A stretch of 64,000 nt of DNA, from positions 434,001-498,000 of the forward strand of contig JALHQT010000001.1 of assembly GCA_022841825.1 (NCBI GenBank), read 5' to 3'. Of the stretch, positions 854 to 51,465 are shown one piece after another. Positions within the stretch are counted from its first letter, which is position 1. Each line of letters opens with the position of its first letter. The notes under the pieces are model-generated. The model was not told the DNA's origin. It was given only the letters and a program-made list of their open reading frames with translations, and searched no databases. The stretch is from Anaerolineae bacterium. GTDB taxonomy: Bacteria > Chloroflexota > Anaerolineae > Aggregatilineales > Phototrophicaceae. Position numbers and translations under genes: made by a program.

Positions 854-1662
854 TGAGTGATGCACGGACGCAGGGCGTGACCGCGCTTGAAACCATGTTT
901 GCAGCGGCGAAGGCAGAAGGGCGGTCGGCATTCCTGCCCTATTTCCCCATCGGGTATCCGAATTACGAGGAATCGCTGGCGGTGATTGAGGCCCTGGCGA
1001 AGACGGGTGTCGATGGGTTTGAGATCGGCATTCCGTTCAGCGATCCGCTGGCGGATGGCACGGTCATTCAGGCGGCGACCCAGAAGGCGCTCGAAAACGG
1101 CACCACTCTTAGAGCATGCCTGGCGGCAGTCCGTGAGCTGCGCGTGCGCGGTGTCGAGCAGCCGATGATGCTGATGGGGTATATGAACCCTTTTATGCGT
1201 TATGGGTTAGAGCGCTTCACCCGTGACGCGAAAGCGGCAGGCGCGGATGGGTTGATCATCCCAGATTTGCCGCCAGAGGAAGGCGCTGTTTTCGCGGAGC
1301 TGTGTCGCAAAGAGGGCTTGGCGCTGGCATTCTTCCTGGCACCGACCAGCAGCAGCGAACGCATTGCTCTGGTGGCACAGCAGGCAAGCGGGTTCATCTA
1401 TGTTGTTGCATTGACGGGGGTTACAGGCGCACGCACTGAGCTACCAGCGGATCTGACGAACTTTATCCAGCGCGTCCGCCAGCAAAGCGGCGATGTGCCG
1501 CTTGTCCTTGGATTTGGCATCAGCCAGCCAGAGCATGTGCAGGCAGTCCAGAAGCTGGTGGATGGGTATATCGTTGGCAGCGCCTTGGTGCGGGCGGGTG
1601 AGCATGGTGCCGAGGCGACACGCGCGCTTGCCGAACGCCTTATGCCGCGCGGCGCGCTATAA
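853..1662 (+). CDS. trpA: Tryptophan synthase alpha subunit
   Basis: TrpA cleaves indole-3-glycerol phosphate to indole and glyceraldehyde 3-phosphate and passes indole to TrpB through a tunnel. The 269-residue length is normal for the family. The motif FEIGIPFSDPLADG (about residues 56-69) carries the two catalytic acids, here Glu57 and Asp68. The C-terminal GFGISQP and VGSALV phosphate-binding segments of the TIM barrel are also present. The start ATG 853 overlaps the stop of the preceding gene (TGATG). No trpB lies in the window, so the partner must be upstream or elsewhere. A TATAAT-like sequence overlaps its stop codon (1658-1663) and could feed the downstream aroH, but no convincing -35 accompanies it. 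Confidence 0.96.
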   Translation: MSDARTQGVTALETMFAAAKAEGRSAFLPYFPIGYPNYEESLAVIEALAKTGVDGFEIGIPFSDPLADGTVIQAATQKALENGTTLRACLAAVRELRVRGVEQPMMLMGYMNPFMRYGLERFTRDAKAAGADGLIIPDLPPEEGAVFAELCRKEGLALAFFLAPTSSSERIALVAQQASGFIYVVALTGVTGARTELPADLTNFIQRVRQQSGDVPLVLGFGISQPEHVQAVQKLVDGYIVGSALVRAGEHGAEATRALAERLMPRGAL

Positions 1663-1716
1663 TCACCCTTTCTTTGCAGTCCTCACGGACCTATCACCGT
1701 CATAGGAGTCTGGATC

Positions 1717-2124
1717 ATGGTCATGGTGCGCGGTGTGCGCGGCGCGACGACCACACATGCCAACGACGCGGACTTGATTCGCGCAGCCACTGTAGAACTG
1801 CTGCAGGCGATGATTGCCGCCAATGGGATCGATGAGGAGCATGTCGCCAGCGCGTTGTTCACGACAACCCCCGATTTGAATGCGACATTCCCGGCGGCGG
1901 CGGCACGCGGTATTGGCTGGACGCAGGTTGCTTTGCTCGGCGCGCAGGAACTCGATTGCCCCAATGGCGTGCCGATGTGTATTCGCGTGTTGATTCACTG
2001 GAATACTGATAAGCCGTTGAATGCTATTCGGCATGTGTATATGCATGGGGCGCAGCGTTTGCGCCCTGACCTATACCCTGAGAACAAGATCGTTGTGGAA
2101 GACGAGGAGCAGCCGCCGATATGA
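1717..2124 (+). CDS. aroH: Chorismate mutase, AroH type
   Basis: AroH rearranges chorismate to prephenate, the entry to tyrosine and phenylalanine. The 135-residue protein matches the trimeric Bacillus-type AroH fold rather than the helical AroQ type. The family's catalytic residues are all visible: Arg8 in VRGVRGATT, Glu78 in AQELD, Arg90 in CIRV and Tyr108 in IRHVYM. The start ATG 1717 has an AGGAG Shine-Dalgarno about eight bases upstream; ATG 1723 is a less likely alternative. It ends in ATGA, which starts tyrA, so the two consecutive enzymes of the route are translationally coupled. Confidence 0.96.
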   Translation: MVMVRGVRGATTTHANDADLIRAATVELLQAMIAANGIDEEHVASALFTTTPDLNATFPAAAARGIGWTQVALLGAQELDCPNGVPMCIRVLIHWNTDKPLNAIRHVYMHGAQRLRPDLYPENKIVVEDEEQPPI

Positions 2125-3008
2125 GCGGGACGGGGTTTCATACGCGCCAACTGGCGGTCGTCGGTCTGGGATTGATGGGCGGGTCGCTGGCGATGGCGCT
2201 GAGGGGGCACGCCGATGTGATCGTGGGCGTCGATCAGGTGGCACGGTCGCGCGAAATCGCGCTGGAACGCGGCATCGTGGACGAAGCGACGGACGATCTT
2301 CGTGCGGCATGTCGAGAGGCAGATACCGTCGCACTGTGCGCGCCCGTGCGAATCATCCTCTCGATTGTACGGGGCCGGCTGGGGGCGTACCTGCGCTCCA
2401 ACACGTTTGTCATCGATATTGGCAGCACGAAAGAAGACATCTGCGAGGCGATGGGGCAGCTTCCTATCGGCGTGCAGGCAATCGGTGGACATCCGATGAC
2501 CGGAAAAGAGACAAGCGGCATTGAGTCCAGCGACGCATACCTCTACCGACAGCGCCCGTTTGTCTTGTGCAGCACGCGCCGCACAACCCCGGCTGCACGG
2601 CTGCGCGCGCTATCATTTGTCGAGGCGCTGGGTGGCGAAGGGATTGAGATGGACGCTCATCGTCATGACCGCACTGTCGCGGCGATCAGTCATCTGCCGT
2701 ATCTCCTGAGTGCGGCGCTGGTTGCGACGGTCAAGAGTGAGGGCGACAAGGACAGCGCGGTCTGGGATCTCGCGGCGGGTGGCTTCCGGGATACCTCACG
2801 CCTTGCCGCGAGCAACCTGGACATGATGGGCGATATTCTCAGCACCAACACCCAGGCAGTCGCGGCGCTGCTGGCGCGCTTTCGAGCGCATCTCGCACTG
2901 TTGGAAGCGGCATTGATCGATGAAGATGGGGAAGAGATTACACAACTGCTGCGCCCCGTACGACAGGCGCGGATTGACTGGCAGAAACACTACGAGAGGA
3001 AGCGGTGA
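2121..3008 (+). CDS. tyrA: Prephenate dehydrogenase
   Basis: TyrA oxidatively decarboxylates prephenate to 4-hydroxyphenylpyruvate using NAD(P). A Rossmann dinucleotide-binding loop, GLGLMGGS, sits at residues 15-22. The substrate-region motif IGGHPMTGKE lies near residue 125, followed by the helical dimerisation domain. At 295 residues it is a monofunctional enzyme: there is no fused chorismate mutase, consistent with separate aroH next door, and no C-terminal ACT domain, so feedback inhibition through ACT is not expected. ATG 2121 overlaps the aroH stop. Arogenate specificity cannot be excluded by eye. Confidence 0.94.
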   Translation: MSGTGFHTRQLAVVGLGLMGGSLAMALRGHADVIVGVDQVARSREIALERGIVDEATDDLRAACREADTVALCAPVRIILSIVRGRLGAYLRSNTFVIDIGSTKEDICEAMGQLPIGVQAIGGHPMTGKETSGIESSDAYLYRQRPFVLCSTRRTTPAARLRALSFVEALGGEGIEMDAHRHDRTVAAISHLPYLLSAALVATVKSEGDKDSAVWDLAAGGFRDTSRLAASNLDMMGDILSTNTQAVAALLARFRAHLALLEAALIDEDGEEITQLLRPVRQARIDWQKHYERKR

Positions 3009-3009
3009 G

Positions 3010-4320
3010 ATGATGCGCGATTACTTTGCAGTCCAACCGGGGAAAGCGCTAACAGGTGAGACGCGCGTCCCTGGTGATAAGTCAATATCCCACCGCGCCG
3101 TCATGTTCGGCGCGCTTGCCCAAGGGAGCACAACCGTGCGCGATTGGCTGCCTGCCGGCGATACCGAGGCATCGCTTGCTGCGATACGCGCACTCGGCGT
3201 CGAAATTGACCGCACCGGGCTGACGGAGATGACCATTCACGGCGGCGCGCTTCATGCGCCGAATGCACCGCTGAATCTCGTCAATGCGGGAACAGGGATA
3301 CGGCTCCTGGCTGGGATCATGTGCGGACAGCCGTTCGCCAGCGTGCTGGATGGCAGTGAGCAGCTTCGCCGCCGTCCGATGACGCGCATCGTCAATCCAC
3401 TGGCGATGATGGGCGCAGACATCACGGCGACGGATGGAAAAGCACCGCTTCATATTCAGCCTGTGGCGCTGCGCGGCATCCACTATCATTTGCCTGTCGC
3501 CAGCGCGCAGGTGAAGAGCGCGCTGCTGCTGGCGGGCTTGTTCGCGAGCGGCGAGACGGTTCTGACGGAGCCAGGTCCCGCGCGCGACCACACCGAGCGT
3601 ATGCTGGACGCGATGGGCGTGGACATCGCGGTTGATCATGCGAACTCGGTGATTACGCTCAAACCCGGACGGACATTACAGCCGATGGACTTCACTGTGC
3701 CGGGCGATCTGTCCTCGGCGGCGTTCCTGATCGTCGCGGCGCTTCTGATACCTGGCAGCGACATTACGCTCACGAACATCAGTATCAACAGTACCCGTAC
3801 CGGTATCCTGGATGTGCTGCGTGAGATGGGTGCCGACATCAGCGTGCAGAAGACTGGCTTGCAGGCAGGCGACCCGGTCGGTACCATCCGTGTGCGGCAC
3901 AGCGTCCTGAAAGGCAGCGACATTGGCGGGGAAGTTGTCGTGCGCATGATCGACGAGTTTCCGATCTTCATGGTGGCGGCGTTGGCGGCGGAGGGCAAAA
4001 CATCCGTGCGCGACGCGGGCGAGCTGCGCGTCAAGGAGACAGATCGCCTGAGCGTGATGACCGCCGAGCTGACCCGGATGGGCGCGCACATTGCGGAGTC
4101 CGAAGATGGATTCGTGATCGATGGTCCGCAGACACTGAAGGGTGCGCGCGTGCATGGGCATGATGATCACCGGATCTCGATGAGTCTGGTTGTGGCGGGT
4201 CTGGTGGCAGCGGGGACGACGACGGTTGATGACGCGCGCTGCGCGGGTGATTCCTTCCCAGGCTATGCCGAGACGCTGACCAGGCTGGGCGCAGATGTCT
4301 CTGTCGGGGTGTATTCGTGA
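3010..4320 (+). CDS. aroA: 3-phosphoshikimate 1-carboxyvinyltransferase (EPSP synthase)
   Basis: AroA transfers enolpyruvyl from PEP to shikimate 3-phosphate. The 436-residue protein shows the PGDKSISHR loop (residues 21-29, with the binding Lys24, Ser25 and Arg29), the PEP-site segment NAGTGIRLLAG, and the late RVKETDRL motif typical of the family. The start ATG 3010 (a second ATG follows at 3013) has GAGAGGAAGCGGTGAG just upstream, and only one base separates it from the tyrA stop. An open frame extends further upstream to 2920, but that would lie inside tyrA. It ends in GTGA, overlapping the aroE start. Confidence 0.97.
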   Translation: MMRDYFAVQPGKALTGETRVPGDKSISHRAVMFGALAQGSTTVRDWLPAGDTEASLAAIRALGVEIDRTGLTEMTIHGGALHAPNAPLNLVNAGTGIRLLAGIMCGQPFASVLDGSEQLRRRPMTRIVNPLAMMGADITATDGKAPLHIQPVALRGIHYHLPVASAQVKSALLLAGLFASGETVLTEPGPARDHTERMLDAMGVDIAVDHANSVITLKPGRTLQPMDFTVPGDLSSAAFLIVAALLIPGSDITLTNISINSTRTGILDVLREMGADISVQKTGLQAGDPVGTIRVRHSVLKGSDIGGEVVVRMIDEFPIFMVAALAAEGKTSVRDAGELRVKETDRLSVMTAELTRMGAHIAESEDGFVIDGPQTLKGARVHGHDDHRISMSLVVAGLVAAGTTTVDDARCAGDSFPGYAETLTRLGADVSVGVYS

Positions 4321-5126
4321 ATCGTGTTGGGGTGATTGGATTTCCCATCGAACACAGCTTGAGTCCGAGGATGCATCAAGCCGCTTATGAGTCGTTGGGC
4401 ATGGGCGATTGGCAGTATGACAAGATTGCCATTCCGCCGGATGTCCTGGGACACAGCATCAAGGAACTCCGCAATCACGATTTCGTCGGCATCAATGTGA
4501 CGGTGCCGCACAAGGAATCGATCATGAAGTTTGTGCGCGCCGACCCTGTGGCGCAGATGGTTGGGGCGATCAACACGGTCGATTTTCGTGAGAACATCGG
4601 CACTAACACGGATGTCGTCGGCTTCATGGATGACCTTGCGGCGAACGGGATCATCGTACGCGATCAGCGTGTGGTGGTGCTTGGCGCGGGCGGTGCGGCG
4701 CGCGCGGTGGTCTATGGGCTGGCAAAGGCGGGCGCGCAAGTTGCGATCGTCAATCGCTCTCAGGAGCGCGCGCAGGAACTGGCGCGAACCTTGCTTGTAC
4801 CGATGACGCTCATGTCGCAGGAGGAGGCTTTCGAGTGGCAGCCTTCGTTGATCGTCAACTGCACGTCGGTTGGGATGCACCCTGAGGTGTGTGCCTGCCC
4901 CTGGAGGGATGTGACACCCATGCCGCGCGCAATCACCGTCTACGACACGATCTATCGTCCAGCGAAGACGCAGTTGATGCAAAGAGCCGAAGAAGCGAAT
5001 GGGCGGGCGTTCAACGGCGTGGGGATGCTGGTGAGGCAGGGCGCGGCGGCGTTCAAGATTTGGACGGGTGTTGAACCGCCGATTGATGTGATGATTGACG
5101 CGGTGATGTCCGCGCTTCGTTCGTAA
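4317..5126 (+). CDS. aroE: Shikimate dehydrogenase
   Basis: AroE reduces 3-dehydroshikimate to shikimate with NADPH. The substrate-binding segment SLSPRMH lies at residues 14-20. The catalytic Lys66 is in NVTVPHK and the partner Asp99 is in NTDVVGF. The nucleotide-binding loop GAGGAARA lies at about 123-130. The length of 269 residues is normal. Translation starts at GTG 4317, which overlaps the aroA stop as GTGA. It is followed after 28 bases by aroC. Confidence 0.96.
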   Translation: MNRVGVIGFPIEHSLSPRMHQAAYESLGMGDWQYDKIAIPPDVLGHSIKELRNHDFVGINVTVPHKESIMKFVRADPVAQMVGAINTVDFRENIGTNTDVVGFMDDLAANGIIVRDQRVVVLGAGGAARAVVYGLAKAGAQVAIVNRSQERAQELARTLLVPMTLMSQEEAFEWQPSLIVNCTSVGMHPEVCACPWRDVTPMPRAITVYDTIYRPAKTQLMQRAEEANGRAFNGVGMLVRQGAAAFKIWTGVEPPIDVMIDAVMSALRS

Positions 5127-41689: not shown

Positions 41690-42333
41690 GGTTGGTAGTT
41701 GACTAGAAATGAATTGGTCTTGCGCTCGCGCCCCAGGGTGGTAGGTTTTCCATGTCCACTCAGGGCAATCACGTCGTCGCCCAGTGGGAGCAGGACATCG
41801 AAGATGCTGTGCATGAGGGTTTGATAGCTGCCACCGGGTAGATCGGTTCGACCAATGCCGCCGTTGAAGAGGCAGTCGCCGCAAAAGACCGTCTTCTGCG
41901 CAGCCATGAAGTAACTGACATGACCCGGTGCGTGACCCGGTGTGTAGAGGGTTTCGAGTGAAATGCTGCCGAGCGTAATGGTCTCGCGTGAATTTCCCAG
42001 GAGTTGATCGGGTTGCGCTGCATCGGGGAAGCGCGTGCCGAAGAAACGCAGCCCCTGTTCCGGCAAGGCGGCGAGCATTGGCGCGGCTTCCTGGTGGATT
42101 ACGAACGCGGCACTGGTCTTCTCCTTCAGCGCTTTGCTGGCGATGATATGGTCGAAGTGGGCATGGGTCGCCAGGATAAGCCTGATCGACCAACCCGCGT
42201 CTTGCGCGGTTGTGTAGATGGTGTCTGCTTCGTCAACAGGGTCAATGACCAGCGCCTCGCCGGTTTCCGTGTCTGCGACGATGTAGCAGTTGGTGTCGAC
42301 CATGCCAAGGGTCAGTGTGCGAATTTCGATCAT
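41686..42333 (-). CDS. Metallo-beta-lactamase fold hydrolase (glyoxalase II-like)
   Basis: The 215-residue MBL protein has THAHFDHI (about residues 55-62), the zinc-site motif, then TLYTPGHAPGHVSYF and CGDCLFNGGIGRTDLPGG, with the bridging Asp. ALSGHG supplies the final His. The arrangement is that of small glyoxalase II-like thioester hydrolases, but it lacks the long C-terminal helical domain of classic GloB. It starts ATGA on the murJ stop and overlaps the phosphatase gene by four bases, so the three are likely one transcript. Confidence 0.9.
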   Translation of the reverse strand: MIEIRTLTLGMVDTNCYIVADTETGEALVIDPVDEADTIYTTAQDAGWSIRLILATHAHFDHIIASKALKEKTSAAFVIHQEAAPMLAALPEQGLRFFGTRFPDAAQPDQLLGNSRETITLGSISLETLYTPGHAPGHVSYFMAAQKTVFCGDCLFNGGIGRTDLPGGSYQTLMHSIFDVLLPLGDDVIALSGHGKPTTLGRERKTNSFLVNYQP

Positions 42334-43949
42334 GGTGTTGTTGCCTCCGGCTGTGGGCGGCGAAAGTGCAGCAGGCGCGCGAGCATGGCTTTAAGTTCAC
42401 TCAGTCCCAATACCCAGGCTGCGCCGACGAAGACGAGCGCGCCCAGCAAAACCTGAAGTGTGACCTGGACGATGGTGATGAGGCGACCCTGCCCTCCGAG
42501 ACCCAGCGCGTTCCACACAACGTCGAAGAGAACCATCGCCAGCGCCATGATCAGGCTGGCTGCGACGGTTTTGATCGTGGTGACTGCCAGCTCATTCTCC
42601 TGAATGCCATGCCAGCGGCGGCGCAAAATGAAGAGCAGTATGATGACTTCAAAGGTGACGCCGAGTGTATTGCCGAGTGTGATTGCCTCGACTCCTCGGG
42701 GGTCTGGTGTTCCGCCATTGATCAACCCGCTGAAAACCCAGGCGAAACCGAGGTTAATGACTGCGCCGCCGGATGTGATGAATAGCGGTGTCCAGGTGTC
42801 CTTATCGGCGAAGAAGCTGCGTGCCGCGACTTCAAGGATTGAATGGATGACGATGCCGAGCGCGAAACCCCGCAGTGCAACATAGACCAGGTTGGTCGCC
42901 TGCGCGTCGAATGCACCGCCTTCGAGCAGGCTCAGGGCGGGGCGACCGACCAGGAGTAAGCCAATTGCCGAAGGGATAGTTCCGATGAGGATGAACTTGA
43001 GCGCGCCAGCCATCGCCCCGCGCTTTCCATCCACGTCGTTGAGCGCGCTGAGGGCTGCGAGCGTTGGGAAGATGACGACTGCCATTGCCGAACCGATCAG
43101 TGTTTGCGGGATTTGCATGAGTCGCCAGCCCCAGCTAAAGGCGCTGACTGCGCCTTCGCCAAGGCGGGACGAAAAGTTGATCGCCATCGTAAAGGTGAAG
43201 GTGAAGACGCCGACATCGACGATTCTTGGCAGCATAAGCATGAATACGCGCCGAAGGGTGGGGTCACTCCAGCCCAAGTCGGGGGTCCAGCGCGCGCCGA
43301 CGCGGATGAGGGCGGGTACCTGGATCGCAAAGTGGAGCGCTGCACCGATCAACGTGCCATAGGCGATCCCGTAGACGCCAAAGGGTCTGACGAGAAATCC
43401 CGCCCCAAAAAGGATGCCGATATCATACATGATGGGTGCCAGCGCAGGTGCGACAAATCGGTTGTGGCTTTGTAGCAAGCCCATCGTCGCGCCGCTGATG
43501 GAAAAGACTATCGTTGCAACAAGCAGCAAGCGCATCAGAGTCGCAGACTCTTGGATGCCTTCCTCGCTGAAGCCAGGGGCGACGACCGTCTGTATCAGCG
43601 TTGGCGCAAGGATGAAGGCGATCAGGCTGATGACACAGGACGCGAGGAAGACCGTGTTGAGGGCACGGCTGGCGAGTCGCCACGCCTGAACACGGTCACC
43701 CTGGGCAAGCATACCGCTGAAGAACGGCATCAACGCCGTCGTCAGAGTGACCCCGCCCAGAATGAGGACGATGGTCTCCGGGAGCTGATTGGCGGCGACA
43801 AAGCGATCCCACTCCGCCCCAATGCCGAAAATGTCGGTGATCAAGACTGTTTGCACAAGGCTGATCACGCGCGCAACCATGAAACCGAAGAACACAATGG
43901 CGGTGGAGCGGATGAGCGTGCGTTGGCTGGCGACGGCTTCTACTGCCAT
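42330..43949 (-). CDS. murJ: Lipid II flippase MurJ
   Basis: MurJ moves lipid II across the membrane for peptidoglycan synthesis. The 539-residue protein is a MATE-like membrane protein with about 14 helices. It begins with the conserved MVARVISLVQTVLITDIFG region, followed by PETIVLILGGVTLTTALMPFFSG, the typical N-terminal lobe. Arginines inside the cavity, as in known MurJ, fit the sequence. It follows the C39-like gene by 12 bases. Together with rodA it indicates that this organism builds peptidoglycan. Confidence 0.92.
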   Translation of the reverse strand: MAVEAVASQRTLIRSTAIVFFGFMVARVISLVQTVLITDIFGIGAEWDRFVAANQLPETIVLILGGVTLTTALMPFFSGMLAQGDRVQAWRLASRALNTVFLASCVISLIAFILAPTLIQTVVAPGFSEEGIQESATLMRLLLVATIVFSISGATMGLLQSHNRFVAPALAPIMYDIGILFGAGFLVRPFGVYGIAYGTLIGAALHFAIQVPALIRVGARWTPDLGWSDPTLRRVFMLMLPRIVDVGVFTFTFTMAINFSSRLGEGAVSAFSWGWRLMQIPQTLIGSAMAVVIFPTLAALSALNDVDGKRGAMAGALKFILIGTIPSAIGLLLVGRPALSLLEGGAFDAQATNLVYVALRGFALGIVIHSILEVAARSFFADKDTWTPLFITSGGAVINLGFAWVFSGLINGGTPDPRGVEAITLGNTLGVTFEVIILLFILRRRWHGIQENELAVTTIKTVAASLIMALAMVLFDVVWNALGLGGQGRLITIVQVTLQVLLGALVFVGAAWVLGLSELKAMLARLLHFRRPQPEATTP

Positions 43950-43961
43950 GATGGCATCTTT

Positions 43962-45602
43962 CTAGGCATTTGGCAGCTCGGCGAGCGCGGTCTGGGCGTC
44001 GGCAAACTGGTTGTTATGGGAAAGCGCGCGCTGGAACGCTGCGCGAGCGCCCGCGATATCGCCTTGCTGCTCCAGGACCCGACCCTGCCAATAGTGCGTT
44101 TCTTCGACGTAAATGCCGCCGTTATTCAGGTTGCTGTTGACGAGCGACATGACATCGGAATAGCGCCCCATGTTGAAAAACGCCTCGAAGTTATAGAACT
44201 GGTACCATGCCATGCGGAAAGGCAGACGATTGCGGGTGGCTTCGTCGAAGGCGAGTACGGCTTCGTCGTAACGCCCCAGGCGTGTCAGCGCTGTACCGAT
44301 GTTGTACCAGGCAAAAGGGTCTTGCGGGTTGGCAAGTGCTTCCTCGCGGGCAGTTTCGAGCGCGAGTTCGTTGGCGCGGGTGACATCGGCGAGGTCGCCC
44401 AGGATACTCACCACCTGAGACTCGCGCTGGGGTTCATAGACGACGATGAAGATGCGATTGAACGGCTGCCAGGTCGCCTCCAGGTCGGTGTAGGGCACTG
44501 GAATCCCGTTGCCTTCACCATTGCCTAGCCAACTGTCGTAGACGAGGAAAACACCGCTTGCGTCATCGTAGCCGACCAGCGTGCGGTAATGCCCGATCCA
44601 GTCCTCGCCCTCGTAAATTGCGCCCCCAACTTCGACAACCACCGGGAAGCCACCCGCGATGAACGCCTTCAGCATGTCCAGCGTGCCGCCAATGCGCGTG
44701 AGCGCTCGTACGGCGCTCTGTGTGTTGACAAAGCGGACAAGTTCGCTGGGCGAGACATTCTTGTCTTCGCGATCAGGCTTGAGTAAGGCAGCGGCATCTT
44801 CCTGGTCACCCTGCCAGCCGTAATAGCTCAGCGCCTGGGCGATGTTCGCGGGACCGCAGTTGTTCCAGGTTTGACGGAAGTGACGAAACCCACCATTGAA
44901 GTGGGTCGCAGGCAGAGAGAATGCAGGTTGTGAGACGACCTCGTTCACCACAGTTTGCAGCGTGGGCACAACCGCGGCTTGCGTGGGCGGTAGGGTTGCT
45001 GTAGGGAGCGTCGTTGCTGTGGGTTCGCTCGTTTCTTGTGTGGCGAGTGGCGTAGAGGTTACCGGTGCTGTTGGGCTTGGCGGCATCACTGTCGCCGTTG
45101 CTTCTGCTGTTGGGCTGCCGCCGAGTCCAAGCAGGAGATCTTGCGCAGAGCGCCCACCGGCGGTAGCCACCACAGTCGGAAGCGTGCCACCAATCGGGGT
45201 AGGGGGCAGGAATGCACCGAGGAACGGCAGCGGTGTAATCAGTTCAGCCTGATAACGCGGGGGCAGGTTGTTTCTGTAGAACGAGATGCCCGCGAAAATG
45301 CCAATGCCCAGCAGTACGATGTAGCCGCCGACCAGCCAGAGACTCATGTGGCGCGGCAATTCCCGGCGAAAGCGGATTGACAGCAGCCACGTATACGCAG
45401 CTGCGATGGCGATGGTTATCAAGACGGGTTGTACGAGACTGACAAGGCGTCCTGAATCGCGGAAGATCAGAAAGCAGGCGATGGCAGCCAGGACGAAGAG
45501 GACAAACAGCCCAACTACCCACCAAAATAGGAATCTTGGCGGCGTTGATACTGCGCGAACTGCGCGCAGGTTGGGCTGGGTTGAGTCGCGTCGATCATTC
45601 AT
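43962..45602 (-). CDS. Membrane-anchored C39-like cysteine peptidase with TPR repeats
   Basis: The 546-residue protein has three to four N-terminal helices (about residues 22-125), a Thr/Pro-rich linker (about 140-225), a C39-like domain whose NNCGPANIAQAL (Cys nucleophile) and GHYRTLVGYDD (His) are the catalytic residues, and then tetratricopeptide repeats (AWYNIGTALTRLGRYDEAV and further). The papain-like domain probably cleaves a peptide outside the cell. The ATG 45602 start removes ten residues of the longest frame. It is the first gene of a murJ-containing operon and diverges from the PHP gene. Confidence 0.85.
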   Translation of the reverse strand: MNDRRDSTQPNLRAVRAVSTPPRFLFWWVVGLFVLFVLAAIACFLIFRDSGRLVSLVQPVLITIAIAAAYTWLLSIRFRRELPRHMSLWLVGGYIVLLGIGIFAGISFYRNNLPPRYQAELITPLPFLGAFLPPTPIGGTLPTVVATAGGRSAQDLLLGLGGSPTAEATATVMPPSPTAPVTSTPLATQETSEPTATTLPTATLPPTQAAVVPTLQTVVNEVVSQPAFSLPATHFNGGFRHFRQTWNNCGPANIAQALSYYGWQGDQEDAAALLKPDREDKNVSPSELVRFVNTQSAVRALTRIGGTLDMLKAFIAGGFPVVVEVGGAIYEGEDWIGHYRTLVGYDDASGVFLVYDSWLGNGEGNGIPVPYTDLEATWQPFNRIFIVVYEPQRESQVVSILGDLADVTRANELALETAREEALANPQDPFAWYNIGTALTRLGRYDEAVLAFDEATRNRLPFRMAWYQFYNFEAFFNMGRYSDVMSLVNSNLNNGGIYVEETHYWQGRVLEQQGDIAGARAAFQRALSHNNQFADAQTALAELPNA

Positions 45603-45710
45603 CGGTCGGGTATGTACTCCAAACCAGGTCACAGATACCGTCGGATAGCATTTGTTGACACTACAAAGTGATCATTTCAGCGTCAACCGCTGGCTTCCCG
45701 ACGTTGCGCG

Positions 45711-45784: not shown

Positions 45785-46525
45785 ATGGATGAGTGGGTGA
45801 TGACTCAGATTGCTTCGCAGCCATCGTCGTTAGGGACCGTCGCGCTAGATCGGTTGCGCGTGGAGCTTCACAGCCATACGCATTGGTCAAAGGACTGCCT
45901 GACCACGCCTGCGACGATCCTACAATTGTGCGAAAAGCGGAGGGTGGACAAGATCGCCATCACCGATCACAACACTGCGGAGGGGGCGCTTGAACTGCAT
46001 GCGCTCGCACCTGAGCGAGTCATCGTCGGAGAAGAGATCATGACTACGCAGGGTGAGCTGCTCGGCTACTTCATGACGGAAAGCATTCCCGCCGGACTGA
46101 CCCCGCAGGAAACCATCCGTCGCTTGCGGCGGCAAGGGGCAGCCATCAGCGTCTCGCATCCCTTCGATCGGCTGCGCAAGGGCGCGTGGGAGGAGGCGGA
46201 TTTGCTGCGAATCATCCATGACGTCGATGCGATTGAAATTTTCAACGCGCGGTGTGTGTTTCGAGAAGACAACCTGAAAGCGGCGAAGTTTGCCAGTGAG
46301 CGGAGAATCCTCGGCACTGTTGGCTCGGATGCACACTCATCTGTCGAATACGGGCGAGCGGTATCGCTGCTCCACCCATTTTCGAATGCGGCAGAGTTTC
46401 TGCAAGCCCTGGGGTCCGCCGAGGCGGAACGTCGCTACAGCTCGTGGTTGGTTCATGTCTCGAGCAAGACGGCAAAGTGGGCGAAGAAACTGAAATTGAA
46501 ACCGCGCCTATGGGAGGGTGGCTGA
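45785..46525 (+). CDS. PHP-domain phosphoesterase
   Basis: The 246-residue protein is built on the PHP fold. It has ELHSHTHWSKDCL (first metal-binding histidines), KIAITDHNTAEG (second), IVGEEIMTTQGEL, SVSHPFDRLR and GTVGSDAHS, the last metal ligands. Standalone PHP proteins of this size hydrolyse phosphate esters, for example of 3',5'-nucleotides or histidinol phosphate; the substrate is not readable here. ATG 45785 is used, though ATG 45800 is equally plausible. It converges with the PBP homologue, and their 3' ends overlap by 18 bases. Confidence 0.9.
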   Translation: MDEWVMTQIASQPSSLGTVALDRLRVELHSHTHWSKDCLTTPATILQLCEKRRVDKIAITDHNTAEGALELHALAPERVIVGEEIMTTQGELLGYFMTESIPAGLTPQETIRRLRRQGAAISVSHPFDRLRKGAWEEADLLRIIHDVDAIEIFNARCVFREDNLKAAKFASERRILGTVGSDAHSSVEYGRAVSLLHPFSNAAEFLQALGSAEAERRYSSWLVHVSSKTAKWAKKLKLKPRLWEGG

Positions 46526-47923
46526 GGGACTCGAAGCAGCGATGGCTGCCTGGAGCGCGCGGATGCCGATGTCGCGCGCGTCGGCTGGGTCGCGCGTGTC
46601 TTCGATGACGACCGCCACTGCAATCCCTTGACCCGTTGGCATCCTGGCGAAGCCCATGAACCAGACCAGCGCGCCTTCACCCGAATAGGCAAGCGCGGAG
46701 TGTGCGCCAACGAGGGCATCGGTGGTTTGGAAATTGCCTGCGAACTCGGTATCGGTCAATGCCATGATTTCCTGTAGGCGTGCTGCTGCCGCTGCTGTCA
46801 TCACTGGGACAGAGGCGGAGCTATCCGTACTGGGTGCCCACTCGCCAGCGTCTGGGTAGCGGGTGGCGAGTAACGAGCGAGGCTGCGGCGCATTCCCTTC
46901 ATTCAAGATCGAAGCGGCGAGCAGCGCAATATCTAATGGGCTGACGATTTGCTCTCCCTGCCCAAGAAGACTATTTCTCAGGTTATCCACGTTCTCGAAA
47001 TTGGCAGGCTCGGCTGAGGGTTGGGTTGCCTGGTTGAGTTGCTGAAGCGCGCGGGCGACCAGCGACGGCTGCAAGGCTGCGCCTAGTTGCAAAAAGGGCG
47101 CCGGGCAGCCAAACCTATATGCTTCGACGAGCGTCAACGCTGCACGAGGCGGGGTGACCGCACAGGTCATCAAGATGTTCTCCAGCGTGACGGGTGCGGA
47201 TGCTTGTGGGAATGGTGATATGAGCGCTATGCCGCTGATCTCGAATAACGCGAGGAGTGGCGTTTGCGTCATGCCGCCCGGTTGGTAACGACCTTGCAGC
47301 GCGCGATTAAAAAAGGGGTTTCCTGAATCTTCGAGGAGGACTGCCCAATTCTCATCGAGTGCATTGGGGTCGTAGGTGGGGTGGCTGAGGATTGCCAGGA
47401 TGTCCCCTGACGGCACGCTCATGACGACGGCAGCGCCCTGATGATTCTCAAAGGCGTCGCGTAGGGTAATCTGCACTTGGCTATCCAATGTGATTTGTAT
47501 GTCACTGCCCTCGACGGGCGCGGCGAAGAAGATTTGGTCGAGTGATCGTGGGCGGTCTGCTCCAGAGAGTATGCGATCATATTGGTTCTCGAAACCGCCA
47601 GTGCCGTAGGTCAGGCTGAAGTATCCCAGCGCGCCGTAGAAAGCGGGTGAGAGATAGTGACGGACGAGACGGCGCTGTGTGCCCTCGTCTACCTCGGACT
47701 GTTCCTCGGTGTGCACGAGCAGGTCGAGATCGCGGTCGTAAATCGCGCCGCGCCTGATGCTGGCGCGGGCTTCCAACAGGCGTGGATTGTCCTCGCGGGC
47801 AAGCAGGCGGTCGCGTTCGATCGACGCCCAGTATGCGCTTGCGGCTGCCACTACGGCAAAGGCAATGAGCAGGGCGCGCGTCAGGATACGCAGTTCTCGA
47901 TTAAGCGACACGTTCGTCCTCAT
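46508..47923 (-). CDS. Penicillin-binding protein homologue lacking the transpeptidase active site
   Basis: The 471-residue class B PBP-like protein has an N-terminal membrane helix (about residues 12-32), a short N-terminal domain with RRGAIYDRDLDLLVH and GYFSLTYGTGGFENQYD typical of PbpA, and a transpeptidase domain with GAAVVMSVPSGDILAILSHP, NRALQGRYQPG and the conserved LGQGEQIVSPLDIALLAASI. All three catalytic motifs are lost. SxxK is Gly217-Met-Thr-Gln220, SxN is Gly272-Cys-Pro274, and KTG is replaced by Ala-His-Ser around 407-409. ATG 47923 lies 23 bases inside the end of rodA. A structural, activator-like role with RodA is inferred. Confidence 0.88.
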   Translation of the reverse strand: MRTNVSLNRELRILTRALLIAFAVVAAASAYWASIERDRLLAREDNPRLLEARASIRRGAIYDRDLDLLVHTEEQSEVDEGTQRRLVRHYLSPAFYGALGYFSLTYGTGGFENQYDRILSGADRPRSLDQIFFAAPVEGSDIQITLDSQVQITLRDAFENHQGAAVVMSVPSGDILAILSHPTYDPNALDENWAVLLEDSGNPFFNRALQGRYQPGGMTQTPLLALFEISGIALISPFPQASAPVTLENILMTCAVTPPRAALTLVEAYRFGCPAPFLQLGAALQPSLVARALQQLNQATQPSAEPANFENVDNLRNSLLGQGEQIVSPLDIALLAASILNEGNAPQPRSLLATRYPDAGEWAPSTDSSASVPVMTAAAAARLQEIMALTDTEFAGNFQTTDALVGAHSALAYSGEGALVWFMGFARMPTGQGIAVAVVIEDTRDPADARDIGIRALQAAIAASSPSATLP

Positions 47924-49220
47924 CGGTTGAGAGCTGAAGCAGCAAGCCAATGATGATGAAATTGACGAGCAGCGAACTGCCTCCATAGCTTAAAAACGGA
48001 AGCGTGACCCCGGTTAGCGGGATGAGTTTGAGGACTCCCGCCATAATCATCAGACTTTGTATGGCGATGAGCAGGCTCAAGCCTGCTGCCATGAGTGAAA
48101 GGTACGGGCGCGCGCTGTGGAGCGAGGCGCTGCGCAGACCGCGCGTAACGATGGTGCCGATGCCTGCAACCAAGCCGATGACGCCGATTAAGCCCCATTC
48201 TTCGGCAAGCGCCGCGAAAATGAAATCAGAGTGGACGACCGGGATTGACGTGGGCAGCCCCTGACCGATGCCGCGACCGAAGATACCCCCTTCTGCAAAG
48301 GCAAAAAGACTCTGAACGATCTGGAACGCGCGCCCGTCCGGGTCGAGCCAGGGGTTCAGCCAGATGTCGATGCGAAGCTGGACGACGGCGAAGACAAAGT
48401 AAGCGGTGATGCCCGCCAGGATGACAAGCCCTGCGCCGCCGACCAGAACCCAGATGAATCCTGTTGCGAGATAGAGCATCAGGAGGAATACAAGAAAGAA
48501 AAGGGTCGCAGTCCCAAGATCGCGCTGCCAGAGCAGGACGACAAAAGAGATGATGAACATGAAGACGACGGGTCCCATCACCGTTGGCGAGAGCGATGGA
48601 AACCGCCGCTTGCTGCGGTCACGGAGCATTTGCAGAGAGGGATACTGCTCTGCAAGATAGCTGGCAAGGAAGGTGACGAGGATGATTTTGAGCAGCTCGG
48701 AGGGCTGAAAGAATATGTCTCCGAAACCCAACCAGAGTCGTGGTGCGCCAATCTGCCCGGACGGATTGACGCCGAGCAGGATAGTGGCGACGAGCAGAAC
48801 CAAACCTGTGATGAGGAGCGTGTAGCGATAGCGGCGCAGCCGCGCAAGCAGATTTGGGATGGCAACGACCACGCTCATCGTGAGTACACCGAGGACGAGC
48901 CAAACCGTCTGACGGTCAGCGAAGTTTGGCGCGAGCCGCTCGATCAATACCATCCCCCAACCGCTCAGGAGCATCACCAGGGGGAAAAGCAGCGGGTCAC
49001 GGTCTGGAAGGCGGCGCTTAAGCCAAAGGTGCCCTGCAAGCGCGGCGATGACCCAGATCGCGTAGTGAATCCAGTCCTGCCCTCGCTGACTTACGAGGGT
49101 AAGTGCGAAGGTGTTGACGAACAGGAATAAGCCTGCAACAGACAAGAGCCTTTGTTCGACACGATCGGGCGGAATCGGACGGTTGACGCGGCGTACCGGC
49201 ATGAGCGATAAGGTGGTCAT
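47901..49220 (-). CDS. rodA: SEDS family peptidoglycan polymerase RodA/FtsW
   Basis: SEDS proteins polymerise lipid II glycans with a class B PBP partner. The 439-residue protein has about ten membrane helices. WLGFGDIFFQPSE is the conserved central motif, NPWLDPDGRAFQ carries the predicted catalytic Asp293, and SDFIFAALAEEWGL and PLTGVTLPFLSYGGSS close the family pattern. Active-site residues therefore look intact, in contrast to the partner gene that overlaps its 3' end. RodA versus FtsW cannot be decided on sequence; gene context in the actinobacterial-type cluster favours RodA. Confidence 0.93.
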   Translation of the reverse strand: MTTLSLMPVRRVNRPIPPDRVEQRLLSVAGLFLFVNTFALTLVSQRGQDWIHYAIWVIAALAGHLWLKRRLPDRDPLLFPLVMLLSGWGMVLIERLAPNFADRQTVWLVLGVLTMSVVVAIPNLLARLRRYRYTLLITGLVLLVATILLGVNPSGQIGAPRLWLGFGDIFFQPSELLKIILVTFLASYLAEQYPSLQMLRDRSKRRFPSLSPTVMGPVVFMFIISFVVLLWQRDLGTATLFFLVFLLMLYLATGFIWVLVGGAGLVILAGITAYFVFAVVQLRIDIWLNPWLDPDGRAFQIVQSLFAFAEGGIFGRGIGQGLPTSIPVVHSDFIFAALAEEWGLIGVIGLVAGIGTIVTRGLRSASLHSARPYLSLMAAGLSLLIAIQSLMIMAGVLKLIPLTGVTLPFLSYGGSSLLVNFIIIGLLLQLSTDEDERVA

Positions 49221-49226
49221 CAGCAG

Positions 49227-50093
49227 TTATTCGAACTGCCGTCCAACAATCGGCTTGAGGCGTTCAAGTACATCGGAGGGTACGGCGTCTCGGTGGGTCA
49301 TGATGGCGTTTTCTAGAGCGCTGTGGCAGCTGCATACATGATGTTCTGGTACGTTGGCAACTGCCGCTGCAAGTGCCTGTTGAGCGAGTTCAACATTCCG
49401 GTGCAGGGTTGCGATGACCATTTCAACGGTGACCGGCGCTTTGCTGAGGTGCCAGACATCGTAATCGGTGATGTGCGCCATGACCGTATAGGCGATCTCT
49501 GCCTCACGGGCGAGGAATGCTTCCGGGCAGGTCGTCATGCCGATGATGTCGCAGCCTAATCTGCGGTAGATGTTGCTTTCGCCGCGCGTGCTGAAGCGGG
49601 GTCCCTCGATGGTTACGAAGCATCCGCCCATGTGAACGGTGCCTCCACTCGACTGCACAGCTTCGAAGGCGATCCTGCTGAGTTCCGGGCAAAAGGGGTC
49701 AGCGACAGAGGTGTGGGCGACAATACCCGTCCCAAAGAAGGAATTCCCGCGATCATGCTTGGTCATGTCGTAGAGCTGGTCGGGGATAATGACATGTCCG
49801 GGCGCGAAATCCTCGCGCAGCGAGCCGCAGGCGTTGACCGCGAAGATGTGGCGGACGCCCATCATCTTGAGCGCGCAGATGTTTGCGCGATAAGGGACGG
49901 TTGAAGGTGTAAAGACATGACCGCTGCCGTGGCGGGGCAGGAACGCCACCCGTTTGCCCCGAAGCGTTCCTACGACGACTGGACTGCTTGGCTTACCAAA
50001 GGGCGTGTCAATGTCTATCATCGCCCGGTCGGTGATCTCCGGCATCATGTAAAGTCCTGACCCGCCAATCACGCCGATCGTCACCTGTTCCAT
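49227..50093 (-). CDS. mtnP: S-methyl-5'-thioadenosine phosphorylase
   Basis: MtnP recycles methylthioadenosine to adenine and methylthioribose 1-phosphate in methionine salvage. The 288-residue sequence shows IGVIGGSGLY, PRHGSGHVFTPSTVPYRANI, VNACGSLREDFAPGHVIIPDQ, FVTIEGPRFSTRGES and GMTTCPEAFLAREAEI, the purine phosphorylase family pattern in its MTAP form. A strong GAGGAG ribosome-binding site precedes ATG 50093. It lies between fhaB and rodA. Purine nucleoside phosphorylase activity on other nucleosides cannot be excluded. Confidence 0.93.
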   Translation of the reverse strand: MEQVTIGVIGGSGLYMMPEITDRAMIDIDTPFGKPSSPVVVGTLRGKRVAFLPRHGSGHVFTPSTVPYRANICALKMMGVRHIFAVNACGSLREDFAPGHVIIPDQLYDMTKHDRGNSFFGTGIVAHTSVADPFCPELSRIAFEAVQSSGGTVHMGGCFVTIEGPRFSTRGESNIYRRLGCDIIGMTTCPEAFLAREAEIAYTVMAHITDYDVWHLSKAPVTVEMVIATLHRNVELAQQALAAAVANVPEHHVCSCHSALENAIMTHRDAVPSDVLERLKPIVGRQFE

Positions 50094-50147: not shown

Positions 50148-50588
50148 TTACCCCTCAAGTTCAAGGCGAAAATGAGATTGCCCAATGCTGATGATGTCAC
50201 CATCTGTGACGATGACTGCCTGATCGATCGGGACTCCATTCAGCAGGGTTCCGTTGGTGCTCCTGCGGTCTTCAAGCCACCAGCGATCATTTCTAAGCGC
50301 AACAAAGGCGTGGTCGTTTGAGGCGAAGGTGTCATTGATGGGGATGTTATTGGTGGCAGCACGACCGAAACTGGTCAGTGGCATGAGCGCATAACTCTCC
50401 TCCGACGCGGCATAACCGCTGGCGGTTTCCTGCACACGAACGATCCTGCCGTAGGTGCGGCGGGTGCTGCCCAGCTTGCTGACCCCATGAAAGTCGCGCC
50501 ACATGACCCAAAAGAGCAGCGCCAGGAAGCCTAACAACACGGCTGCAGACGCAATGCGGAGGACGAATAGGATGAGTTCTGTCGTCAC
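50148..50588 (-). CDS. fhaB: FHA domain protein with N-terminal membrane helix (FhaB-like)
   Basis: The 146-residue protein starts at GTG 50588 with a membrane helix (about residues 5-28). It ends in an FHA domain: FGRAATNNIPIND, SNDHAF and STNGTLLNGVPID give the phosphothreonine-binding Arg, Ser, His and Asn positions. This short TM plus FHA layout is that of actinobacterial FhaB/FipA, which links Ser/Thr kinase signalling to the division machinery. It is 19 bases downstream of the larger FHA gene and belongs to the same unit. Confidence 0.88.
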   Translation of the reverse strand: MTTELILFVLRIASAAVLLGFLALLFWVMWRDFHGVSKLGSTRRTYGRIVRVQETASGYAASEESYALMPLTSFGRAATNNIPINDTFASNDHAFVALRNDRWWLEDRRSTNGTLLNGVPIDQAVIVTDGDIISIGQSHFRLELEG

Positions 50589-50607: not shown

Positions 50608-51384
50608 TTAAGGATGCGATGGCGGATAAATGTCTGTTTGCCCGTAGTCGGCGTCCTGATTGTCCTCAATGTAGATCATGCGCGCATGACCCATGAGAAT
50701 GACATCACCAGGTTGCAACCGATGTTCTTGAATACGGACCCCATTGACATAGGTCCCATGCTGGCTGTCGTTATCAAAGAGTGTATAAGCGCCAAAACGC
50801 AGCCTGACCTGGGCATGATGCCTGGAGACCGTTGGGTCGGCAAGCACGATGTCGTTATCCCGACTGCGACCAATGTTGGTAATCGATGCATCAAGCAATA
50901 CGGTGCGTTCTGCATTGATGATCATCCGCCCGACAGTAGGGAGCGGTGGCGTGGTCGGAAGCTCTACGCGCTGAAGTGCGGCGGTTTCCTGCGATATGCG
51001 CACCTGATGCCCCGCTTCGACGATCACTTGTATGTGCGCCAGGTTGGAGTCGGGATTCAGGATGATGTTGGGAACCCGAAGCAATCGGTAGTCGTGGTTG
51101 GAGGCAAGTTCGCTGATGTGCTCCGTCAGGAGCGCGATGAGGTGCGGCTCTTCGCTGGTGAGATGAGCGACGATTTCTGGGTGCAGGTGTATCGTAAAGC
51201 GGTCAGGCGCTACGGTACGCTCATCTTCGCCCGCGATGGGTTCGCTCAGTTGGTCATCAAAGGCACGGGTGATATGCAGCAAAAGATCATGTGCCGTGAT
51301 GCGCTGGCGAAAAATCTGCGTGAAGGTGCCCTCAATGAGGCGCTCCAGTTGCGCTTCGATGCGCGCGAGGTGATGATTGCTCAT
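50608..51384 (-). CDS. fhaA: FHA domain protein with DUF3662 (FhaA-like)
   Basis: The 258-residue protein begins with ARIEAQLERLIEGTFTQIFR, matching the DUF3662 domain of actinobacterial FhaA (about residues 1-120). Its C-terminal FHA domain has GRSRDNDIVLADPTVSRHHAQ and DSQHGTYVNGVRI, with intact phosphothreonine-binding residues. FhaA in mycobacteria binds phosphorylated MurJ-like MviN and controls cell-wall synthesis; a similar role is inferred here. ATG 51384 is used; an in-frame ATG at 51393 would add three residues. No Ser/Thr kinase gene is in the window. Confidence 0.9.
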   Translation of the reverse strand: MSNHHLARIEAQLERLIEGTFTQIFRQRITAHDLLLHITRAFDDQLSEPIAGEDERTVAPDRFTIHLHPEIVAHLTSEEPHLIALLTEHISELASNHDYRLLRVPNIILNPDSNLAHIQVIVEAGHQVRISQETAALQRVELPTTPPLPTVGRMIINAERTVLLDASITNIGRSRDNDIVLADPTVSRHHAQVRLRFGAYTLFDNDSQHGTYVNGVRIQEHRLQPGDVILMGHARMIYIEDNQDADYGQTDIYPPSHP

Positions 51385-51465
51385 AGAGGGCATTATAGCC
51401 CGACTGCCCAGGGGCGGCAAAAGTGTACGGGGCAGACATGATCATCTGCCCCGCTTTGACTGCCT

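Follow-up and report, generated by a model that had tools for sequence, protein, structure and literature searches.

A PbpA-type penicillin-binding protein without transpeptidase motifs, retained in Anaerolineae as a probable non-catalytic partner of RodA

In Actinobacteria the genes for RodA and its class B penicillin-binding protein (PBP) occur in the order fhaA-fhaB-rodA-pbpA, and in Mycobacterium tuberculosis the gene for PbpA likewise accompanies rodA and FHA genes. Which contribution a class B PBP makes to its SEDS polymerase, other than cross-linking, is an open question that has so far been studied with engineered mutants. According to excerpts of the published reports, E. coli RodA is stimulated by the PBP2 anchor helix alone, as it is by a full fusion (PMC10449877), and RodA is activated by alterations to the pedestal of PBP2 (PMC6207328). 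Opening of PBP2 activates RodA while cross-linking is blocked, and of the two contacts described between the proteins one is activating and the other inhibiting, the latter being relieved when the transpeptidase domain opens (PMC10257715). The same excerpts describe polymerisation that is uncoupled from cross-linking as toxic in E. coli (PMC6207328).

The window analyzed here is a stretch of 64,000 nucleotides (positions 434,001 to 498,000 of contig JALHQT010000001.1, assembly GCA_022841825.1) from an Anaerolineae bacterium. Next to rodA it encodes a PBP that lacks the motifs of the transpeptidase active site. We propose that, at an early point in this branch of the Anaerolineae, a PbpA-type PBP ceased to be catalytic and was probably kept as a structural and allosteric subunit of RodA, with cross-linking taking place in trans.

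Sequence, fold and setting of the window protein

On the minus strand, positions 46508-47923 form one open frame of 471 amino acids, whereas the plus-strand translation of the same interval is riddled with stops. Frame and length are intact, as the preliminary description held, and its reading of two motif positions is borne out by alignment with active homologues, in which GMTQ (217-220) occupies SxxK and GCP (272-274) occupies SxN. For the third motif the loss stands but the register does not: K-T-G aligns with H408-S409-A410, one residue off the AHS (407-409) given before. Neither S..K nor K[ST]G occurs anywhere in the protein and, because it contains no lysine, a shifted SxxK or KTG is impossible in any register, which disposes of a misaligned or displaced motif. 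An assembly error or frameshift is excluded by the intact frame together with 56 orthologues, an argument that does not cover the broken frame of L256/L063 described below. Considering also that no complete motif was found in those 56 orthologues or in 80 named loci, the claim that the protein is non-catalytic appears as firm as sequence allows.

The assignment to a PbpA/FtsI-type fold, also made earlier, is upheld by several comparisons. Pfam detects PF00905 over two parts of the protein (46 bits) and, slightly below the cut-off of 27 bits, PBP_dimer_2 (26 bits); its best sequence match in the PDB is M. tuberculosis PbpA (E 4.5e-16). An AlphaFold model built from a 77-row alignment reached a mean pLDDT of 92.5 and a pTM of 0.89 (a single-sequence run gave a pLDDT of only 35.5), and a Foldseek search with this model returned M. 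tuberculosis PbpA for all of the top nine chains, with a best E of 2.4e-28. Pairwise structural alignment (VIA-align) gave Z 41.1 and rmsd 2.4 over 347 residues for 3lo7, and Z 40.3 and rmsd 2.9 over 382 residues for 3un7. Chance similarity to PBPs is ruled out by the PDB sequence match and the Foldseek match. As judged from sequence and model, this is a class B PBP in which the PbpA fold is predicted to be retained and the chemistry gone.

The 3′ end of rodA extends 23 bases into the PBP gene (47901-47923), and the encoded RodA retains D332 in an HSDFI motif, as previously noted, which we take to be the catalytic Asp of SEDS proteins. This column is Asp in all 51 rows with an unfused pseudo-PBP, in all 26 with an active partner, and in 17 of the 18 fused rows (the exception reads X). 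FhaA_N/FHA genes lie upstream of the rodA-PBP pair with a phosphorylase gene in between (Table 1), so that the window resembles an actinobacterial-type fhaA-fhaB-rodA-pbpA cluster. A gene for the lipid II flippase MurJ is located 2.6 kb downstream of the PBP gene (42330-43949). Between the two, on the minus strand, 43962-45632 encodes a C39-like peptidase with TPR repeats; 36 of 80 related loci contain a homologue.

Table 1. Features of the rodA-PBP locus, in coordinates of the window
Feature	Coordinates	Strand	Remarks
Pseudo-transpeptidase, a full-length class B PBP of PbpA type that lacks the catalytic motifs	46508..47923	-	471 aa; no lysine
Membrane anchor helix, residues 5-34	47822..47911	-	Helix in AlphaFold model; the part surviving in L254 and L261
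Pedestal domain, residues about 40-135	47519..47806	-	RodA-facing by homology; R43-x-DN-x-R48 and R58-G59
Inactive transpeptidase fold, residues 137-460	46544..47515	-	Pfam, model, structural matches
SxxK position, GMTQ, 217-220	47264..47275	-
Cys254	47162..47164	-	Likely disulfide with C273
SxN position, GCP, 272-274	47102..47110	-
KTG position in correct register, HSA, 408-410	46694..46702	-
rodA/ftsW, SEDS glycan polymerase	47901..49220	-	PF01098, 256 bits; Asp332 at 48225-48227
Nucleoside phosphorylase (PNP_UDP_1), a conserved neighbour on the upstream side of rodA	49227..50093	-	Homologue in 68 of 80 named loci
FHA-domain protein, presumably FhaB-like	50148..50588	-	Homologue in 55 of 80 named loci
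FhaA-like protein, FhaA_N and FHA	50608..51420	-	Homologue in 55 of 80 named loci

The FHA genes raise the possibility that the ectodomain mainly recruits RodA or its regulators, for instance as a link to FhaA/FhaB signalling, and is not an activator of polymerisation. We regard this as unlikely. The upstream position of these genes matches the actinobacterial rodA-pbpA cluster, but the association is unspecific: FHA homologues are found near only 55 of 80 loci (a count lowered partly by contig ends), and the ectodomain lies outside the cell, whereas FHA proteins are cytoplasmic. A role in recruitment would have a parallel in E. coli, where PBP2 governs localisation of the Rod complex (PMC7089770, excerpt).

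Extent of the loss and the constraint that remains

Our search of 61 genomes from the same genus, family and order recovered an orthologue in 56, the other five giving only weak matches that resemble other PBPs. No complete motif is present in any of the 56, as far as their sequences reach, nor in any of the 80 named loci, which come mostly from metagenome bins labelled Anaerolineae, Chloroflexi or Aggregatilineales (one, L195, is labelled Bacteroidetes). A wider set comprised 141 loci from 141 genomes: the 56 from the order, 59 from elsewhere in the class and 26 from elsewhere in the phylum, the latter two groups being a non-random choice of best-scoring matches plus selected N-terminal matches, with many class genomes lacking an orthologue. 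All three motifs are present in 39 of these loci (14 class, 25 phylum) and none in 102, with no intermediates; the 102 inactive rows include gaps, from partial sequences or deletions, in one case at position 217, in 19 at 272 and in six at 408. The loss is therefore shared among homologues. A canonical SxxK, which the preliminary description named as evidence that would speak against its reading, does occur in homologues, but only in active relatives outside the inactive clade and in none of the 56 order orthologues.

On a RodA tree of 117 rows the distribution of active and inactive states requires two changes, one deep and one for L121. Such counts give no direction; we infer that the direction was loss, and that the active relatives represent the ancestral state, because regain of three motifs is implausible. 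When the tree was rooted with the two other SEDS proteins of the genome, the root fell among inactive rows. Such rooting on distant paralogues counts against loss and would imply that three motifs had been regained; the two outgroup rows are separated by a distance of 3.5, and we took the placement as long-branch attraction and set it aside. L121 (G304, 1492-4152, minus strand), from another class of the phylum, encodes RodA fused to an inactive PbpA. It is possibly an independent loss plus fusion, or else a contaminant contig: a second loss is hinted at by an AU p of 0.041 on a quick tree thinned to 75 rows, and the genome is 8% contaminated.

Purifying selection acts on the inactive proteins. 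Of 275 candidate pairs the 40 closest, some of them repeats owing to a genome entered twice, gave dN/dS values of 0.04-0.37 for the PBP, 0.04-0.42 for its transpeptidase part and 0.03-0.24 for RodA. A loss of catalysis that spans species under purifying selection marks the family as one of pseudoenzymes. Constraint within these proteins has shifted toward the pedestal and away from the transpeptidase domain, as seen when the ratio of pedestal to transpeptidase identity is compared at matched RodA divergence (26 active, 51 unfused and 18 fused rows): active pairs gave 0.87-0.91 in five of six bins and 1.03 in the closest, whereas unfused pseudo pairs gave 1.08-1.38. For fused pseudo pairs, with 0.97-1.31 overall and 0.97 in the most diverged bin, the shift is less clear. 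Pedestal residues D45, N46, R48, R58 and G59 are found in all 51 unfused pseudo rows, and R43 in 50 of them.

In the transpeptidase part, the Asn of SxN has become Pro in all 51 unfused pseudo rows and in 17 of the 18 fused ones; the Ser of SxxK persists in 12 of 51 and 1 of 18, respectively, and its Lys in none. G321-Q322, W421-F-x-G and two cysteines are kept. Together with the low dN/dS, these residues suggest that the inactive part is not merely decaying and may have a binding or catalytic role of its own. Lysines are scarce: the 82 full-length pseudo rows average 2.1 per protein (17 of them have none) compared with 8.9 in 39 active rows. Part of this loss reflects composition, because RodA, too, has few lysines in the pseudo group (3.4 per protein, compared with 4.9 in the active group), and we used the scarcity only to exclude a shifted motif and otherwise set it aside as evidence.

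It is conceivable that the active site has been remodelled, such that the transpeptidase fold carries new chemistry or binds a new ligand, for example around Cys273 and His408 or by taking up uncross-linked stem peptides, as a neo-enzyme or sensor. C254 and C273 co-occur in 82 of 82 full-length pseudo rows, the lysine position of KTG is His in 57 of the 82, and the domain remains under purifying selection, all of which would agree with this possibility. However, the same Cys pair is present in 14 of 39 active rows and aligns with two Cys of M. tuberculosis PbpA, which presumably form a disulfide, and C254-C273 is likely a disulfide pair as well. Position 408 varies, with Q in 13 rows, Y and F in three each, L in two, T and M in one each and a gap in two. 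Among S, K, H, C, D, E, R, T and Y residues of the fold, the two Cys are the only ones conserved at 85% or more in pseudo but not in active rows. Finally, the core of the domain has been deleted in related lineages. On balance we think it decidedly unlikely that new chemistry explains retention, and we favor a subunit kept for its effect on RodA.

Fusion, erosion and joint absence with RodA

RodA and the PBP share a single stop-to-stop frame in 33 of the 92 inactive loci with RodA in view, and in none of the 29 active ones; on the RodA tree, at least seven switches of fusion status are needed. Most of the segment bearing SxN has been deleted in 19 inactive loci. Two of these, L124 and L136, come from single-contig genomes and match PF00905 over only the first 40-43 of its 299 positions.

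Erosion seems to have gone further in a few lineages, the anchor-only cases being two or three metagenome bins. In L254 (genome G032) rodA is followed by a 59-residue peptide that consists of the anchor and the DNPR motif only (37 bits to the PBP profile). In L261 RodA is fused to the anchor and DNPR and ends there (41 bits); its sisters on the tree, with a support of 100, are L108 and L155, which have the same genus code and full pseudo-PBP fusions. L254 and L261 seem to keep only the anchor of the PBP. L255 (genome G031) is a weaker case, in which RodA has an extra terminal hydrophobic helix with no PBP after it (5.6 bits, a weak score; the bin is 74% complete). All three recall the E. coli construct in which RodA carries no more of PBP2 than its helix (PMC10449877, excerpt). 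RodA also ends in an extra hydrophobic helix with no PBP following in L264 and L265 (G084, G118). We did not count these two as anchor remnants: the helix has no match to the PBP profile, although the phosphorylase neighbour is kept.

In the genomes examined, this RodA is usually missing where no PBP was recognized. Three of the five order genomes without a recognized PBP (G025, G030 and G050) also lack this RodA, and the other two (G032 and G031) retain it. Among 80 class genomes selected for a weak best profile match (E 5e-55 or worse, or none), this RodA is missing in 73 (at E 1e-60), making it absent in 76 of 85 genomes without a recognized PBP across order and class. Of the seven class genomes that keep RodA, two are cut by a contig end with the PBP start visible (L259, L260) and two are cut earlier (L262, L263); the others are the anchor-only L261, and L264 and L265 with their helix of unproven origin.

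Another reading would make the PBP a passenger in the rodA operon that is slowly decaying and is useful only through its anchor or through translational coupling to rodA. The core-deleted lineages, the anchor remnants and a transpeptidase domain that evolves faster than the pedestal could suggest as much. This reading is improbable given an inactive state that extends across the whole sampled order and many families of the class with dN/dS far below 1, 31 columns that are invariant in 77 sequences, and a single clearly broken frame noticed among the order orthologues, L256/L063 (G027). There, frames at 4526 and 4981 of L256 (G027:C92:40000-52000) split the orthologue into an anchor-plus-pedestal part and a transpeptidase part, by sequencing error, gene decay or a natural split.

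The inactive protein as a partner of RodA

The preliminary description envisaged an activator or scaffold for glycan polymerisation. We arrive at a similar role from the constraint on the pedestal, the restriction of fusions to inactive PBPs, the loss of the core with anchor and pedestal kept, the anchor remnants, and the joint absence with RodA, lines of evidence that are not fully independent of one another. By homology, and by analogy with published work on RodA-PBP2, the anchor helix and pedestal would dock on RodA and permit or stimulate polymerisation of lipid II by it. Having lost catalysis early in this branch yet stayed with RodA, the inactive fold, under weaker selection, might serve as a movable lid or as a docking surface for regulators, and could be dispensed with in those lineages in which it has been trimmed or deleted. 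The RodA series with its inactive PBPs would fit a partner kept for the published RodA contacts.

Glycan made by this RodA would then be cross-linked in trans by other PBPs, and it is plausible, as proposed earlier, that another enzyme performs this step. Because uncoupled polymerisation is toxic in E. coli, cross-linking in trans would have to be efficient. The genome has three SEDS genes, one adjoining a MurG-like gene; four further class B PBPs that have S..K and KTG (L244, near a MraW gene, L247, L248 and L249); three class A PBPs, counted by the presence of the same two motifs; two strong and two weak MreB matches; and six YkuD matches. Each of 41 genomes with the pseudo form has three to eight PF00905 matches (E 1e-15), possibly including the inactive protein in some. 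L247 and L248 carry MecA_N domains, and PBPs of this type are present in 39 of 41 pseudo genomes compared with 20 of 39 active genomes tested; as a case for compensating cross-linkers this is weak, since the pattern is largely one evolutionary event. The genome of the window also encodes a 1000-residue class A PBP (L253:1769-4768; G000:C8:217000-223500) with a transglycosylase domain of 96 bits, a sub-threshold PF00905 score of 21.6 bits and no S..K in frame, apparently a second PBP with an inactive transpeptidase.

Natural SEDS-PBP fusions are already known, one being that of Rhodococcus cited in PMC10449877 (excerpt). A survey of titles and abstract openings in the open-access literature found no naturally inactive, clade-wide SEDS partner, a weak negative with subscription papers mostly outside its scope. 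The Anaerolineae may present a graded series, from active PbpA to an inactive full-length subunit and then, in several lines, to fusion with RodA, loss of the transpeptidase core and an anchor helix alone, the pair becoming a single-function polymerase; for this series as a whole we hold belief and doubt in equal measure. If it is true, nature would have demonstrated that what a SEDS polymerase cannot do without in its class B PBP is the anchor and pedestal, and that a RodA remains functional when cross-linking is supplied wholly in trans, the synthase's own partner being blind to beta-lactams. On our reading, evolution has eliminated the chemistry of cross-linking in a large bacterial group while the other parts persist, and natural truncations there resemble laboratory constructs. 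The family makes the activator role directly testable, indicates which parts are dispensable, and implies that cross-linking need not come from the same complex. Matches to transpeptidase-family domains would cause these proteins to be annotated as enzymes and as beta-lactam targets; on sequence grounds they are unlikely to be either.

Of the systems described to date, M. tuberculosis PbpA (PDB 3un7/3lo7) is closest to the window protein in sequence and fold and has its two Cys at the same alignment positions. It differs in being a working enzyme that is acylated by beta-lactams, as acyl-enzyme entries in the PDB document. The RodA-PBP2 pairs of E. coli and Thermus thermophilus share with the window pair a SEDS protein and a class B PBP, and PBP2 acts on RodA apart from cross-linking (PMC10449877, PMC10257715, PMC6207328; excerpts). 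In contrast to the partner described here, which would be unable to cross-link, PBP2 does so and is the target of mecillinam. The single-ORF fusion of Rhodococcus RHA1 likewise places SEDS protein and PBP in one polypeptide (cited in PMC10449877, excerpt). Fusions in our set were seen only with an inactive PBP, some of them core-deleted, whereas the Rhodococcus PBP may or may not be active. In Clostridioides difficile, PBP3 and SpoVD provide a case in which a class B PBP promotes synthesis of the asymmetric-division septum without catalysis; as far as the excerpted report describes, catalysis was removed there by experiment (PMC12713402), whereas in the Anaerolineae the loss is natural and common to a clade.
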